Assembly (NCBI RefSeq): GCF_004364865.1 | Contig: NZ_SOAU01000001.1 | Location: 2,264,001 to 2,328,000, forward strand | Reading direction: 5' to 3' | From: Ilumatobacter fluminis | GTDB lineage: Bacteria > Actinomycetota > Acidimicrobiia > Acidimicrobiales > Ilumatobacteraceae | Length of the DNA stretch: 64,000 bases | Part shown: positions 36 to 7,224 of the stretch, in pieces | Layout of the letters: the number at the start of each line of letters is the position of its first letter | Numbering within the stretch: position 1 is the first letter of the stretch | The notes under the pieces: model-generated | Told to the model about the DNA's origin: nothing | Database searches by the model: none | Seen by the model: the letters and a program-made list of their open reading frames with translations, nothing else | Translations under genes and position numbers: made by a program

Positions 36-806
36 ATGAGTCGTCGCTACGAAGACTTGGCCGGACCCGACATCGCGGAACGGGTGTCCGCCGAGTCGAT
101 CCTGTTGTTACCGATCGGCGCTGTCGAGCAGCACGGACCGCACCTGCCCCTGGCCGTCGATCACGTGATCGCACACGAGACGGCGACGGCGGTGGTCGAC
201 CGGGTCGGCGACGAACTCGACATCTGGCAGCTGCCCACGATCTCCATCAGCAAGTCGAACGAGCACGCCTGGTCTCCCGGCACGCTGTGGTTCTCGGCCG
301 AGACGATGCTGGCGATGTTGCGCGATCTCGGCCGGAGCATCGCGACGACCGGGTGCGAACGGCTCGTCCTGCTGAACGGCCATGGCGGCAACACCACCAT
401 CCTCGCCACGGCGCTCCGAGAGCTCCGACTCGAGTTCGGGCTCAAGACGTTCCTCGTCCACCCGTCGGTCCCACCGGCCTATGGCGGCGAGTCGACCGAG
501 GACGAGCTCGGCATGGGGATCCACGGCGGCCTCCACGAGACGTCGATCTACATGCACCTCCGGCCCGAACACGTCGACCTGTCGAAGGCCGAGCGCAAGG
601 TGCCCGAGGGGCTCGACTCGAACGAGTTCGTGAAGTTCGGCGGCGCCGTGATGTTCGGCTGGCTGTCGAACGACTTCGACCCCGACGGCTACATCGGCGA
701 CCCCACCGGTGCCAGCGCAGAACTCGGCGCCCGGTTGTTCGAGGCCAACGTTGCTCATCTCGCCCGACAGATGGCCGAGATCAAGACCTTCGACTTCGGC
801 CGCTGA
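36..806 (+). CDS. Creatininase-family amidohydrolase
   Basis: A 256-residue protein of the creatininase/creatinine amidohydrolase family, the usual length for these metal-dependent amidases. The family N-terminal metal motif is visible as E31-Q-H33 with D42 (GAVEQHGPHLPLAVD), followed by LLNGHGGN near residue 116 and HGGLHE near 168, which supply further ligands and the catalytic Glu. Family members open cyclic amides such as creatinine or act in cofactor pathways (MftE, formamide hydrolases), so the substrate cannot be read from sequence. The next gene overlaps its stop (TGATG), and an ABC importer with an M20 carbamoylase-type hydrolase lies nearby, which suggests use of a nitrogen-containing small molecule; that is inference. 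Confidence 0.85.
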   Translation: MSRRYEDLAGPDIAERVSAESILLLPIGAVEQHGPHLPLAVDHVIAHETATAVVDRVGDELDIWQLPTISISKSNEHAWSPGTLWFSAETMLAMLRDLGRSIATTGCERLVLLNGHGGNTTILATALRELRLEFGLKTFLVHPSVPPAYGGESTEDELGMGIHGGLHETSIYMHLRPEHVDLSKAERKVPEGLDSNEFVKFGGAVMFGWLSNDFDPDGYIGDPTGASAELGARLFEANVAHLARQMAEIKTFDFGR

Positions 807-1597
807 TGCGCTTCGCCCAGATCACCGACTGTCACATCACCGAGCCGGGTGACCTCGTCGCCGACCGCGTCGACCCGACCGACGGTCTCCGCCGAGCCGT
901 CGACCGACTCGCCGAACTCGGATCCGAGATCGACGTCGTGCTCGCCACCGGCGACCTGACGAACGACGGACGTCCCGGCGAGTACGACGTGCTCGAACGA
1001 CTGCTGGAGCGGATCCCGCAGCGGATCGTCGTCGTACCCGGCAACCACGACGACCGCGGCGAGCTCCGTCGCCGGTTCGATCTGCCGGTCGCCGCCGACG
1101 ACGATCCGATCGATCACGTCGTCGATCTCGGCGACTGCCGTCTGGTCTGCCTCGACACGACCGTGCCGGGTCGCAACGACGGGCGCGTCACCATCGAGCA
1201 GCTCACCTGGCTCGACACCCAGATCGCCGAACGCATCGACGTCCCGGCGATCGTCGTGCAGCACCACCCGCCCTTCGCGTCCGGCATCGAGTCGATGGAT
1301 CAGTACGGCCTCGACGGGGCCGACATCGAGGCCGACATCGTCTCGCGCCACCGCCACGTCGCCGGCATCGTCGGCGGGCACTATCACCGCCCGATCGCCC
1401 GCGCCGTCGGTGGCACGGTGGCATTCGCGTGTCCGAGTACGGCCGTGCAGCTGCATGCGCGGCTCGGGGACGGGCCCACCACCTACGCCGACGATCCGCC
1501 GGCGTTCGCGCTCCACGAGCTCACCGGCGGGTCTCTGACGTCGCACGTGGTCCAGCTCCGGGAGACCACGTCCTGGGTGCCGTCGTGGGCGATGTGA
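806..1597 (+). CDS. Metallophosphoesterase (CpdA/GpdQ-like class III phosphodiesterase)
   Basis: A 263-residue calcineurin-like phosphoesterase. The five metal-binding blocks are present in order: DCH at residues 8-10, GDLTNDG near 50, GNHDD near 75, QHHPPF near 152 and GGHYHRP near 191. Proteins of this size and motif spacing hydrolyse cyclic nucleotides or glycerophosphodiesters; which one applies here is not determinable. The start ATG at 806 overlaps the upstream TGA, so translation is coupled to the creatininase. The frame stays open far upstream, but only as a shadow of the creatininase gene. Confidence 0.85.
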   Translation: MRFAQITDCHITEPGDLVADRVDPTDGLRRAVDRLAELGSEIDVVLATGDLTNDGRPGEYDVLERLLERIPQRIVVVPGNHDDRGELRRRFDLPVAADDDPIDHVVDLGDCRLVCLDTTVPGRNDGRVTIEQLTWLDTQIAERIDVPAIVVQHHPPFASGIESMDQYGLDGADIEADIVSRHRHVAGIVGGHYHRPIARAVGGTVAFACPSTAVQLHARLGDGPTTYADDPPAFALHELTGGSLTSHVVQLRETTSWVPSWAM

Positions 1598-1658
1598 ACG
1601 CCCGATGAATCGACTGCGTTCGGGTGGACCGCCCGAGGTTCCTCCCGTCGTCAGCGGC

Positions 1659-1664
1659 TAAGTT
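1659..1664 (+). promoter_or_regulatory. -10 element upstream of the ABC importer ATPase
   Basis: TAAGTT stands 8 bases before an ATG at 1673 that opens a 17-codon reading frame, and about 58 bases before the ATPase GTG. The spacing matches the leaderless pattern of the neighbourhood and would place the short frame at the mRNA 5' end. Confidence 0.45.
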
Positions 1665-1672
1665 GCTGCCCC

Positions 1673-1726
1673 ATGCCCCGCGCCGAATTCCTGCGCCGTC
1701 CCACCGAGCCGGAGGTCCGACCGTGA
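1673..1726 (+). CDS. Putative 17-residue leader peptide (uORF) of the ABC ATPase gene
   Basis: ATG at 1673 opens a 17-codon frame (MPRAEFLRRPTEPEVRP) whose TGA at 1724-1726 overlaps the GTG start of the ABC ATPase as GTGA. A TAAGTT -10-like hexamer ends 8 bases before the ATG. The arrangement would let ribosomes load on a leaderless mRNA and reach the ATPase start by coupling. The peptide has no recognisable function, and no run of one amino acid that would suggest a classic attenuator, although it contains four Pro and four Arg. It may be fortuitous, since the ATPase also has its own GGAGGT site. Confidence 0.35.
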   Translation: MPRAEFLRRPTEPEVRP

Positions 1727-2481
1727 GCGACACGACCACCGACATCCGCACCGACTCACTCGCCTTCGAGCACACCGGCATGGTGTTCCCCGACGGCACG
1801 GAGGCGGTCCGCGACGTCAGCTTCACGGTCAAGAAGGGCGAGTTCGTCACCATCGTCGGCCCGTCCGGCTGCGGCAAGTCCACCCTCCTCAAGATCGCCT
1901 CGGGTCTGCTCGAACCCACGTCGGGCGCCGTGCAGGTCGACCGCGACCGGCTCGGGTACGTGTTCCAGGACGCCACCCTGCTGCCGTGGCGCACGGTCAA
2001 GAAGAACGTCGAGTTGTTGGCCGAACTGCACGACTTCCCGAAGTCCGAGCGGTCGAAGCTGGCTCAGGAAGCGATCGATCTGGTCGGCCTGAAGGGCTTC
2101 GAGGAGCACTACCCGAAGTCGCTGTCGGGTGGCATGAAGATGAGGGCGTCCCTCGCCCGCACGCTCACGCTCAAGCCGCCGGTCTTCCTGTTCGACGAAC
2201 CGTTCGGCGCCGTCGACGAGATCACCCGCGAACACCTGAACGACGAGACCCAGCAGCTGTTCCAGCGTGAGGGGTTCGCCGGCTTGTTCATCACCCACTC
2301 GATCTCGGAGGCTGTGTTCATGTCGACCCGCGTGCTCGTCATGTCGGCGCGCCCCGGGCGGATCGTCGCCGAGTACCAGGTGCCGTTCGACTACCCGCGT
2401 GACCCCGACCTGCGGTTCGACCCCGAGTTCGCCCGGCTCAGCGGCGAGATCTCACACGCCCTCCGCGGCTCCCACTCGTAG
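1723..2481 (+). CDS. ABC transporter ATP-binding protein, NitT/TauT (SsuB/TauB) type
   Basis: A 252-residue nucleotide-binding subunit. It has Walker A GPSGCGKST near residue 46, a Q-loop (YVFQDATLLPW) near 80, the signature LSGGMKMRASLAR near 132, Walker B VFLFDEP near 155 and the switch His in ITHS near 192. The WRTVKKNV segment after the Q-loop and the FITHSISEAVFMSTRV stretch are typical of nitrate/sulfonate/taurine-type importers. GTG 1723 is chosen because GGAGGT sits at 1711-1716 with a six-base spacer. The cognate permease and binding protein lie at 4968 and 5941, separated from it by an FAD oxidoreductase on the other strand and an SDR gene. Confidence 0.88.
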   Translation: MSDTTTDIRTDSLAFEHTGMVFPDGTEAVRDVSFTVKKGEFVTIVGPSGCGKSTLLKIASGLLEPTSGAVQVDRDRLGYVFQDATLLPWRTVKKNVELLAELHDFPKSERSKLAQEAIDLVGLKGFEEHYPKSLSGGMKMRASLARTLTLKPPVFLFDEPFGAVDEITREHLNDETQQLFQREGFAGLFITHSISEAVFMSTRVLVMSARPGRIVAEYQVPFDYPRDPDLRFDPEFARLSGEISHALRGSHS

Positions 2482-4169: not shown

Positions 4170-4175
4170 TAACGT
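4170..4175 (+). promoter_or_regulatory. -10 element for the SDR gene
   Basis: TAACGT ends 10 bases before the ATG at 4186, giving at most a few bases of leader. No ribosome-binding sequence is visible. Confidence 0.45.
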
Positions 4176-4185
4176 CGCGCGGGTC

Positions 4186-4935
4186 ATGCCAGCGATGACT
4201 CCGAGTGACAACGCTCCACGCCGTGTCGTGGTGACCGGCGCCGCCCGCGGCATCGGCGCGGCGATCGCCGGCGCCTTCGTGGCCGAGGGCGATCAGGTCG
4301 TCCTCGTCGACCGTGCCCCCGATGTCGCCGATACCGCCGCCGATCTCGGCGCGAAGTCGGCGGTGTGCGATCTCGGTGATCCCGACGACGCCCGTCGCGG
4401 CATCAGCGAGGCGATCGACACGCTCGACGGCATCGACGTGCTGGTCAACAACGCCGGCGTGTTCGAGATCGTCCCCTTGCTCGACATCGAGGCCGAGCAG
4501 TGGAGCCGGATGTTCGACATCAACACCCGGTCGATGCTGCTCACCACACAGGTCGCCGCCCGCCGCATGATCGACCAGGGCACCGGTGGCCGGATCGTCA
4601 ACATGGCCAGCATGGGCGGTAAGGACCCCGCACGCGGCCAGTCGCACTACGCGGCATCGAAAGCAGCCGTCATCGCGCTCACGCAGGCGACGGCGAAAGA
4701 GCTCGGCGAGTACCAGATCACGGCCAACTCGCTGTGCCCCGGCTACGTGCTGACCGAGATGGGCGCCGACACCCGCACACCGGAGATGGTTGCCGGGTGG
4801 TCGTCACTGTCGCCGCTCGGCCGATGTGGCTCACCCGACGACGTCGCCGCCATGGCCGTCTTCCTCGCCTCGCCCAGCGCGGCGTATCTCACCGGACAGG
4901 CGTTCAACGTCACCGGTGGGATGATCATGCACTGA
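4186..4935 (+). CDS. Short-chain dehydrogenase/reductase
   Basis: A 249-residue classical SDR. It shows the TGAARGIG cofactor motif near residue 18, NNAG near 87, the catalytic Ser region (NMASMGG) near 140, the YAASK Tyr-Lys pair near 155 and the PGYVLTEM segment that follows. The acidic residue after the second strand (LVDRAP) suggests NAD(H) preference. The gene ends 32 bp before the permease start on the same strand, so it probably belongs to the transporter transcription unit and may act on the imported compound. An alternative ATG lies at 4195. Substrate unknown. Confidence 0.85.
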   Translation: MPAMTPSDNAPRRVVVTGAARGIGAAIAGAFVAEGDQVVLVDRAPDVADTAADLGAKSAVCDLGDPDDARRGISEAIDTLDGIDVLVNNAGVFEIVPLLDIEAEQWSRMFDINTRSMLLTTQVAARRMIDQGTGGRIVNMASMGGKDPARGQSHYAASKAAVIALTQATAKELGEYQITANSLCPGYVLTEMGADTRTPEMVAGWSSLSPLGRCGSPDDVAAMAVFLASPSAAYLTGQAFNVTGGMIMH

Positions 4936-4967: not shown

Positions 4968-5870
4968 ATGACGACCGATTCACCCGCCCACATCAGCGAC
5001 GCCACCGACGTCGGCGCCGTCCCCGCCGGAGCCGGACAGCCGATGTTGCCGCCCAAGGCGGCCGGCCGTTCGTCGAAGGCGTTGAGCAAGGTCGCAGGCC
5101 CACTGATCGGACTCGCCGTCTTCGTCGGCATCTGGTACTTCATGCACTACTGGGTGCTCGAGAACGTGTTCGACAAGCCGAGCTTCCTGATCACCGAACC
5201 GCACCGTGTCATCAAGGACTCGTTCTTCGACAGCGTCCCGCGTGAGCAGATGCTGACCGGTCTCGGATGGACCACCATGATCGCCCTGATCGGCCTCGGT
5301 ATCTCGATCGTGCTCGGCATGACGATCGCCGTCCTGATGGCCCAGTCGACACTGCTCGAGGGCGCCTTCTGGCCGTACCTCATCGCCGCGCAGGCGGTGC
5401 CGATCCTGGCGATCGTGCCGATCCTCGGCAGCATTTTCGGGTTCGGGTACGGATCGCGCGTGCTCGTGTGCGTGATCATCTCGATCTTCCCGATCGTGTC
5501 GAACACCTTGTTCGGTCTGTTGTCGGCCGAGAAAGGGATGCACGACCTGTTCACCCTTCACCGCGCCAGCCGGACGACGCGGCTGTTCAAGCTGCAGTTC
5601 CCGGCTGCGCTGCCGGCGATCTTCGCCGGATTCCGCATCGCCGCCGGCCTGTCGGTGATCGGCGCCGTGGTCGGCGAGCTGTTCTTCCGCCGAGGCAGCA
5701 AGGGGATCGGGATCCTGATGGACCAGTACCGGTCCCGCAACCTCTATCCGCTCACCTACGGCGCACTCATCTTGTCGTCGCTGCTCGGCATCGCCGTGTT
5801 CGTCTTCTTCGGCTGGCTCAGCAAGGTCGCCATCGGCAAGTGGCACGAGACGAGCCGCACCGGCACCTGA
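4968..5870 (+). CDS. ABC transporter permease, NitT/TauT (SsuC) type
   Basis: A 300-residue integral membrane subunit with a polar N-terminal tail (about 40 residues), a first membrane helix near residues 45-62 and a BPD_transp_1 core. The EAA-type coupling loop is visible around LHRASRTTRLFKLQFPAALPAIFAGFRIAAG near residue 197, where the motif docks on the ATPase. It pairs with the ATPase at 1723 and the lipoprotein gene 70 bp downstream. The start ATG follows the SDR stop by 32 bp. Confidence 0.87.
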   Translation: MTTDSPAHISDATDVGAVPAGAGQPMLPPKAAGRSSKALSKVAGPLIGLAVFVGIWYFMHYWVLENVFDKPSFLITEPHRVIKDSFFDSVPREQMLTGLGWTTMIALIGLGISIVLGMTIAVLMAQSTLLEGAFWPYLIAAQAVPILAIVPILGSIFGFGYGSRVLVCVIISIFPIVSNTLFGLLSAEKGMHDLFTLHRASRTTRLFKLQFPAALPAIFAGFRIAAGLSVIGAVVGELFFRRGSKGIGILMDQYRSRNLYPLTYGALILSSLLGIAVFVFFGWLSKVAIGKWHETSRTGT

Positions 5871-5902: not shown

Positions 5903-5940
5903 ACGACTCCAGCGTGAACACCGAGAAACAGGAGAACCAC

Positions 5941-7224
5941 ATGACCCGTCGAACCCGACGTTTCGCAGCGATGTCCGTGGTCGCAGCGCTCGCCCTCGCG
6001 GCGTGCGGTGACGATGACGACAGCGCCGACGAGCCGGCTGACGAGCCGACCGAAGAACCCGCCGAGGAGCCCTCGGAGGAACCGGCCGAGGAGCCCGCCG
6101 ACGAGCCGGCCGAGGACGATATGGACGAGCCGGCCGAGGAGCCCGCCGACGACATGGACGAGCCGGCCGAAGAACCAGCCGAGGGCGTGTCGCTCGCCGA
6201 CGTCTGCCCCTCCCCCGTCGTCATCCAGACCGACTGGAACCCCGAGGCCGAGCACGGCTGGATCTACGAGATGATCGGTGACGGCTACGAGATCGACACT
6301 GGCGCTGTCGCCGTCCGCGGTCCGCTGGTGGCGGGTGGCGTCGAGACCGGCGTCGACATCGAGATCCGCTCCGGTGGTCCGGCGATCGGTTTCCAGACCG
6401 TGACGTCGCAGCTGTACGCCGACGAGGACATCTTGCTCGGTTACGTCTACACCGACGAGGCGATCCAGAACTCGGCCGAGTTCCCGACCGTGGCCGTGAT
6501 GGCCGGCATGGAGAAGAACCCGCAGATCCTGTTCTGGGATCCGGAGACGTATCCCGAGATCGAGTCGATCGAAGACCTCGGTGAGGCAGGCGTGCTCGTC
6601 CGCTACTTCGGTGGCGCCGCGTACATGGACTACTTCACCCAGTCGGGGATCTTGTCGGCCGATCAGGTCGACGGCTCGTACGACGGCACCCCGGCGCTGT
6701 TCATCGCCGATCAGGGCGCCTCGGCGCAGCAGGGCTTCGGCTCGGCCGAGCCGTACATCTACGAGAACGAGGTTCCGGACTGGAACAAGCCGATCGAGTA
6801 CGCCTACATCAACGACGCCGGCTGGGAGAACTACGCCGAGTCGATCGCGATCAAGGCGGACCGCCTCGAGGAGAACCGGGCCTGCCTCGAGCAGCTCGTG
6901 CCGATCATCCAGCAGAGCTCGGTCGACTACGTGACCGATCCCGCCGAGACCAACACGGTGATCATCGAAGCCGTCGAGGCGTTCGACAACGGCTGGGTCT
7001 ACACCGAGGGTGTGGCCGCCTACGCCGTCGAGACGATGCTCAACGACGGCCTCCTCTCGAACGGACCCGACGACACGCTCGGCAACTTCGACATGGACCG
7101 TGTCCAGGGCCTGATCGACATCGCGATCCCGGTCTACGAGTCGCTCGGCCAGGCGCCGAAGGAAGGCCTCGTGCCCGAAGACATCGTGACCAACGAGTTC
7201 ATCGACGAGAGCATCGGTCTCTGA
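5941..7224 (+). CDS. ABC transporter substrate-binding lipoprotein, NMT1/TauA-like
   Basis: A 427-residue exported lipoprotein. The signal peptide RRTRRFAAMSVVAALALAAC ends in a lipobox with Cys22. It is followed by about 60 residues of Glu/Asp/Pro-rich repeats (DEPAEEP units, about residues 27-83) that should act as a flexible spacer to the membrane. The mature domain starts near VSLADVCPSPVVIQTDWNPEAEHG, the QTDW.P..EHG pattern of NMT1/THI5-like periplasmic proteins that feed NitT/TauT importers. GAG-rich sequence (AGGAG at about 5930) precedes ATG 5941. A strong hairpin follows the stop. The ligand is not readable from sequence; thiamine precursors, sulfonates or nitriles are typical of relatives. 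Confidence 0.85.
   Translation: MTRRTRRFAAMSVVAALALAACGDDDDSADEPADEPTEEPAEEPSEEPAEEPADEPAEDDMDEPAEEPADDMDEPAEEPAEGVSLADVCPSPVVIQTDWNPEAEHGWIYEMIGDGYEIDTGAVAVRGPLVAGGVETGVDIEIRSGGPAIGFQTVTSQLYADEDILLGYVYTDEAIQNSAEFPTVAVMAGMEKNPQILFWDPETYPEIESIEDLGEAGVLVRYFGGAAYMDYFTQSGILSADQVDGSYDGTPALFIADQGASAQQGFGSAEPYIYENEVPDWNKPIEYAYINDAGWENYAESIAIKADRLEENRACLEQLVPIIQQSSVDYVTDPAETNTVIIEAVEAFDNGWVYTEGVAAYAVETMLNDGLLSNGPDDTLGNFDMDRVQGLIDIAIPVYESLGQAPKEGLVPEDIVTNEFIDESIGL

Follow-up and report, generated by a model that had tools for sequence, protein, structure and literature searches.

A candidate leaderless upstream reading frame joined by a GTGA overlap to an ABC-importer ATPase in Ilumatobacter fluminis, with frame and overlap apparently conserved and the peptide free to drift

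The gene for an ABC-importer ATPase in Ilumatobacter fluminis is preceded by a 17-codon upstream open reading frame (uORF) whose stop codon overlaps the ATPase start codon in the sequence GTGA. Judging from the DNA of this locus and its relatives, we consider it likely that the uORF is leaderless and delivers ribosomes to the ATPase by termination and re-initiation, the encoded peptide being irrelevant. Coupling is supported by the conservation of the frame and of the RTGA overlap in two groups of the ATPase tree. The mRNA of the importer ATPase would begin at or beside ATG 1673, and a ribosome would load without a leader on this 5'-terminal AUG, translate a short frame of indifferent peptide, halt at the TGA of GTGA and re-initiate on the overlapping ATPase GTG. 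The uORF would then act as a ribosome-loading adaptor, linking a leaderless promoter to a gene that starts 33-73 nt past the -10 box.

The window, that is, the whole stretch of DNA analysed, has a length of 64,000 nt, and the features that matter here are the following (positions in the window).

806..1597, + strand: metallophosphoesterase gene, 5' of the importer ATPase (profile matches)
1594..1610, + strand: GTGAACGCCCGATGAAT, a degenerate GTGAAC-N5-GTGAAC direct repeat with two mismatches, tentatively a GlnR-like site
1659..1664, + strand: TAAGTT, a -10-like box (TANNNT), from the sequence and the TANNNT peak 6-9 nt before gene starts
1673..1726, + strand: uORF of 17 codons, MPRAEFLRRPTEPEVRP and stop, probably leaderless, its layout shared by 17 of the 20 loci that could be read in two tree groups
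1711..1716, + strand: GGAGGT, Shine-Dalgarno-like, within the uORF codons
1723..1726, + strand: GTGA overlap of the ATPase GTG (1723) with the uORF TGA (1724-1726), read from the sequence, RTGA being part of the uORF-class definition
1723..2481, + strand: ABC-importer ATPase of NtrCD/Ssu/Tau type, 252 residues, GTG start (NCBIfam; ABC_tran)
4968..5870, + strand: importer permease (BPD_transp_1)
5914..7224, + strand: probable substrate-binding lipoprotein of the importer, from position and sequence

The original prediction had described TAAGTT, eight nucleotides, an ATG and a frame of 17 codons with its TGA overlapping the ATPase GTG, and the sequence agrees in every part, the intervening bases between TAAGTT and ATG 1673 being GCTGCCCC. 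It had missed the GGAGGT at 1711-1716, a strong Shine-Dalgarno sequence for the ATPase inside the uORF. The top NCBIfam match of the ATPase, ntrCD, scores 184.6 bits under a cut-off of 291.8, and since the scores lie under the NCBIfam cut-offs we leave the substrate without assignment. The lipoprotein gave weak NCBIfam lipoprotein matches, likewise under cut-off, and no Pfam match. Between the ATPase and the permease and lipoprotein genes stand an oxidoreductase gene in the opposite orientation and an SDR gene. In a plasmid search, the matches among the records listed (5 of 1064) were confined to ATPase-coding DNA.

We examined the leaderless spacing rule in a 1.264-Mb sample of the same genome, made up of the window and 60 stretches of 20 kb each, in which a purpose-written codon-usage gene finder called 1086 genes. 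For the 1005 genes preceded by non-coding DNA, TANNNT was matched 47, 56, 43 and 18 times at spacers of 6, 7, 8 and 9 nt, 164 times in total, and 0-6 times at each of the remaining spacers from 0 to 30, or about two per spacer. The leaderless spacing rule is thus valid in this genome, and the claim that the uORF obeys it was borne out, its spacer of 8 nt falling within the 6-9-nt peak. The SDR gene (ATG 4186) has a TAACGT 10 nt upstream (window 4170-4188), just beyond this peak.

ATPase orthologues were sought in 150 genomes of the family, the window's own included, and 110 gave a match at E <= 1e-80; from these we took the best 30 matches (including L001, the window itself) and 20 chosen from about 87 further ones, and all nine matches of the same genus are among the loci compared. 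GTDB contigs held at least 542 relatives, of which the best 80 were kept. Paralogues from the window's own genome (L002-L010) and a locus without upstream DNA (L117) were left out before counting, and identical upstream DNA was counted once. Of the resulting 106 distinct loci, 18 carry a leaderless uORF that ends in RTGA at the ATPase start, 14 a directly leaderless ATPase start, 54 a Shine-Dalgarno sequence only and 20 none of these; within the uORF class, four loci also have a Shine-Dalgarno sequence and one also has a direct leaderless candidate. When the uORF scan was widened to spacers of 5-10 nt, to TTG starts and to a box at any point within 160 nt, 21 of 83 loci matched; four of them, L041, L074, L082 and L103, have TTG as the start of the uORF or of the ATPase and lie outside the stricter 18-locus class. 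The family's other genera include loci at which the ATPase itself appears to be leaderless, with TANNNT 7-8 nt before its own ATG or GTG (L141, L143, L145, L147-L153, L156, L159); this directly leaderless class (L141-L159 in part) occupies a separate part of the tree and, judged by eye, often lies directly 3' of an SDR-like gene, not of a metallophosphoesterase gene. Boxes resembling CGACTAGGTT and GGCTAAGTT were likewise recognised by eye 5' of the ATPase in many relatives.

The uORF layout is concentrated in two groups of the ATPase tree, in both of which it consists of TANNNT, 7-9 nt, RTG, a frame of 9-22 codons and RTGA on the ATPase start. One of the two is a clade of 13 rows, in which all 12 that can be read have it; the remaining row, L022, ends at a contig edge and is unreadable on the tree, yet is counted among the 20 loci with none of the signals and among the 74 with neither a uORF nor a direct leaderless start. 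In the window's group five of eight rows have it (L001, L011, L140, L018 and L058). Tree support is 93/50 for the 13-row node, 97/84 for the inner 12-row node and 83/89 for the window's group. Elsewhere the layout occurs at one of the 85 remaining distinct loci, L081, which stands alone within Shine-Dalgarno relatives and is regarded as a chance case; both L081 and L058 are weak members of the class. The 9-nt spacers of L014, L018 and L019 lie at the edge of the TANNNT peak. The layout is retained in the two closest relatives, L011 and L140 (ATPase identity 95% and 89%), and within the genus it is found at four of nine loci (L001, L011, L140 and L018). The original prediction would have counted a uORF broken in close relatives against itself, and this objection holds in part: the short frame and its overlap are retained in L011, L140 and L018 but absent from the other five same-genus loci, three of them in the window's tree group (L012, L013, L026) and two elsewhere on the tree (L030, L158). 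All five are classed as Shine-Dalgarno-led, and in L026 a TAAGTT is in addition followed at 7 nt by an in-frame TTG.

The same five loci favour an alternative in which the ATPase is started by its own strong Shine-Dalgarno sequence and the uORF is an inherited, near-neutral passenger, like the 5'-uAUGs of E. coli mRNAs, changes to which left many downstream genes minimally affected in the portion of the study available (PMC4965119). Duplex energies, computed with an anti-Shine-Dalgarno sequence taken from general knowledge, give the GGAGGT before the window's GTG -10.7 kcal/mol, the strongest value among the 18 uORF-class loci, and because of this the coupling may be only auxiliary in the window's genome. 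Against this alternative, L011 and L140 retain frame and overlap with uORF bodies of 54 and 66 nt (51 nt in the window) at weaker pairing energies of -5.8 and -1.1 kcal/mol, and we consider it unlikely. If ribosomes are delivered through the uORF, as we prefer, the strong Shine-Dalgarno sequence could offer a second route to the ATPase start or an aid to re-initiation. Across the loci, a simple pattern search found the Shine-Dalgarno sequence missing in 14 of 18 uORF-class loci versus 20 of the 74 with neither a uORF nor a direct leaderless start (Fisher p 2e-4). Median duplex energies were -5.6 kcal/mol in the uORF class versus -7.2 kcal/mol (p 0.009), and with the best start per locus on both sides p was 0.016, neither value being corrected for relatedness; L019, like L140, shows next to no Shine-Dalgarno pairing. 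The association between a uORF and a missing Shine-Dalgarno sequence is suggestive; as a statistical claim, that the uORF replaces the Shine-Dalgarno sequence was dropped, since the tree provides only 2-4 independent pairs and the test has no power.

A further alternative places the main transcript start elsewhere, by read-through from the metallophosphoesterase gene, which lies on the same strand 125 nt upstream, or by a start farther downstream, so that 1673 would not be 5'-terminal; the recurrence among relatives of a -10 box 7-9 nt from the RTG speaks against it, and we regard it as improbable. The metallophosphoesterase gene, which runs from 806, itself overlaps the creatininase-family gene before it (36-806) in a TGATG stop/start at 804-808, and the two form a candidate coupled pair of their own.

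Chance could also bring a leaderless-looking ATG and a frame that happens to end on the ATPase start. Dinucleotide shuffles of the DNA between box and GTG reproduce the complete layout at a rate of 2.3% per promoter of such composition. When the genome sample was scanned for upstream frames of 4-40 codons with an RTGA end on the gene start and TANNNT at a spacer of 6-9 nt, seven layouts were observed in 1.264 Mb versus about 3.7 expected, the expectation for the four spacers being derived from 25 layouts over the other 27; in 464 kb, a smaller sample in which genes could also start with TTG, there were five. A single-genome case of the layout is therefore not significant, and the earlier statement that the overlap was unlikely to be planned otherwise was too strong for one genome. 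Genome-wide use of the device was rejected on the same figures, seven versus about 3.7 being no clear excess. The six other candidate leaderless RTGA-coupled uORFs of this genome lie at L192:153 (+), L160:12936 (+), L178:14395 (+), L133:10369 (-), L129:16784 (+) and L137:14788 (-), and about half of them are expected by chance.

Since the single case is not significant, what counts is retention among relatives. The presence of the layout in 17 of 20 readable loci of the two tree groups makes chance very improbable as an explanation: shuffles predict 0.63 layouts among the 17 loci, and when similar uORF bodies are collapsed into six groups, multiplying the largest probability of each group gives about 8e-9, an index rather than a probability because the loci share ancestry. 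The RTGA and the frame belong to the class definition, and outside the fully occupied clade the evidence is the counts per clade and not the phase of the loci counted. In the 12-locus clade the in-frame state is not an effect of selecting loci, because every readable member has the layout; in the window's group it is partly such an effect.

What varies among these loci is the length and content of the frame. In the 12-locus clade the uORF has nine codons in nine loci and 10, 13 and 19 in the others, and in the window's group it has 17, 18, 22, 14 and 9; the corresponding bodies of 27, 30, 39 and 57 nt in the former and 27, 42, 51, 54 and 66 nt in the latter are all in frame. The ATPases of L044, L017 and L040 are close relatives, but their uORF bodies of 39, 30 and 27 nt are unrelated, with an aligned identity of 51-54% that lies inside the shuffled 95% limit of 55%. 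In L014 and L019 the uORF start lies two bases farther from the box, yet nine codons still lead to RTGA. The peptides of relatives are unrelated (for example MFRLPHMFS, VIRFLGGQQ and MPCAESTCQRPCPPTEPS), except that the three nearest share an MP-AE start, where the DNA is alike too. Four 9-codon uORFs differ at 3, 20 and 16 of 48 sites at codon positions 1, 2 and 3, with 9 synonymous versus 21 non-synonymous codon changes, and in these small numbers there is no sign of peptide conservation by codon position. Conservation thus appears, from these comparisons, to act on the frame and the overlap and not on the peptide.

The original prediction had suggested that importer expression is tied to translation of an Arg/Pro-rich peptide. 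The coupling half of this idea gains from the conserved frame and RTGA in two groups, and the role for the peptide falls away, the relatives' peptides being unrelated; a length that varies in frame together with diverging peptides points to ribosome delivery, not to sensing through Arg and Pro codons. Attenuation by stalling on such codons, to which the 4 Arg and 4 Pro among the window peptide's 17 residues lend some colour, is hardly credible, as the relatives' peptides share neither an Arg/Pro run nor any other conserved run of regulatory codons of the kind expected of an attenuator leader and are unrelated beyond the nearest kin, local folding of the window's own sequence is no stronger than that of shuffles (z 0.05; z 0.75 and 1.03), and positions 1400-2000 have no Rfam match at E up to 0.1. 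The ordinary folding led us to set aside an RNA structure that hides the ATPase start and, together with the lack of an Rfam family, leaves neither unfolding of a hidden start nor a riboswitch supported.

Comparison of the start regions raises the possibility, which we put forward tentatively and with more doubt than confidence, that the start mode of the importer ATPase has switched in evolution between a directly leaderless start, an RTGA-coupled leaderless uORF and a Shine-Dalgarno-led leader. Such a comparison concerns one gene and not one promoter, because the directly leaderless class sits elsewhere on the tree and often follows an SDR-like gene. If it is true, the uORF would serve as an adaptor that needs no particular sequence and through which a leaderless promoter can serve a start tens of nucleotides away, and control at the transcript start would stay tied to ribosome loading while the spacer is free to vary.

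Leaderless small ORFs coupled to a following gene are known from mycobacteria, through a study whose first author is reportedly Shell. As far as the accessible text goes, the PLoS Genet 2015 paper on M. tuberculosis (PMC4633059) has 23 of 220 leaderless small ORFs coupled by RTGA, includes an orthologous case in which the sequence is unconserved and the leaderless start and the linkage are conserved, and proposes peptide-independent delivery of ribosomes in its discussion. By its sequence features, the window's uORF appears to belong to the coupling class described there: the small ORFs have 5-50 codons (17 here, 9-22 in the two tree groups), and their TGA overlaps the RTG of the next gene, as in GTGA 1723-1726. 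In the mycobacterial set the RTG stands at the transcript start, for which the proxy here is TANNNT 8 nt before the ATG. Linkage is kept and sequence is not, both in some of those cases and here, where linkage is missing in five of nine same-genus loci. The present case differs in coming from Acidimicrobiia-type genomes, in serving an ABC importer, in spanning many species versus two and in being known from DNA alone. Among the open-licence papers listed in our searches we found no report of leaderless RTGA-coupled uORFs in Acidimicrobiia.

Three other systems offer partial parallels, and translational coupling at large is covered by a review (PMC12548453). In M. tuberculosis uPPE2-ppe2, re-initiation occurs at an AUGA uORF overlap and ppe2 requires its uORF to be translated, chiefly through termination-reinitiation, according to the part of PMC11260477 consulted; that uORF is likewise short and out of frame with a 4-nt stop/start overlap, but it is Shine-Dalgarno-led, is governed by a B12 riboswitch and precedes a gene without a Shine-Dalgarno sequence. 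The 5'-uAUGs on Shine-Dalgarno-led E. coli mRNAs affect the main gene minimally to strongly (Beck et al. 2016, PMC4965119); the window, if its AUG is indeed 5'-terminal, would resemble them in that this AUG opens a uORF before a gene with its own Shine-Dalgarno sequence, and the accessible portion of that paper does not name a stop/start overlap as a requirement. Overlapping gene pairs share with our case the RTGA-type overlap and a Shine-Dalgarno sequence within the upstream frame, whose contribution to re-initiation varies in the material available from Huber et al. 2019 (PMC6728339); these are pairs of genes and not a leaderless uORF of 17 codons.

The pattern described here would extend a mycobacterial device of translation coupling to another actinobacterial group. 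Annotation easily passes over frames of 9-22 codons at the start of a transcript, and because frame and overlap are kept as the peptide drifts, this family of uORFs can be recognised from DNA alone, in a way that separates translation for its own sake from translation for the peptide. Natural orthologue pairs with and without the uORF are available.

The degenerate GTGAAC repeat upstream of the importer begins at 1594, about 60 nt 5' of the -10-like box, and GTGAAC-N5-GTGAA also precedes the ATPase in L011, L013, L018 and L140. GTGAAC or GTGAAA occurs in the corresponding upstream stretch of 30 of 103 loci, a count that carries no chance estimate, and at up to three mismatches the window contains 55 matches to the repeat versus 51 expected, so that its own degenerate copy is unremarkable alone. 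A phosphate (PHO) box was set aside as an interpretation in favour of nitrogen control of the importer, which on the sequence may be offered as a weak guess. The AC-N9-AC core of the repeat fits the M. smegmatis GlnR motif as given in the part of PMC3662644 available. The exact GTGAAC-N5-GTGAAC pattern has seven copies in the genome versus none for the reversed pattern. The neighbourhoods of three (L201, L202 and L206) show no nitrogen link, one (L204) lies downstream of a taurine-dioxygenase-like gene, past its 3' end and not in a promoter position, and another (L203) stands between an amidase gene, which it follows, and a gene that has no family match. L205 lies between an opposite-strand gene and the gene for an Amt ammonium transporter (amt) about 640 nt away, and L200 is found directly 5' of the gene for the glutamine synthetase GlnII (glnII).
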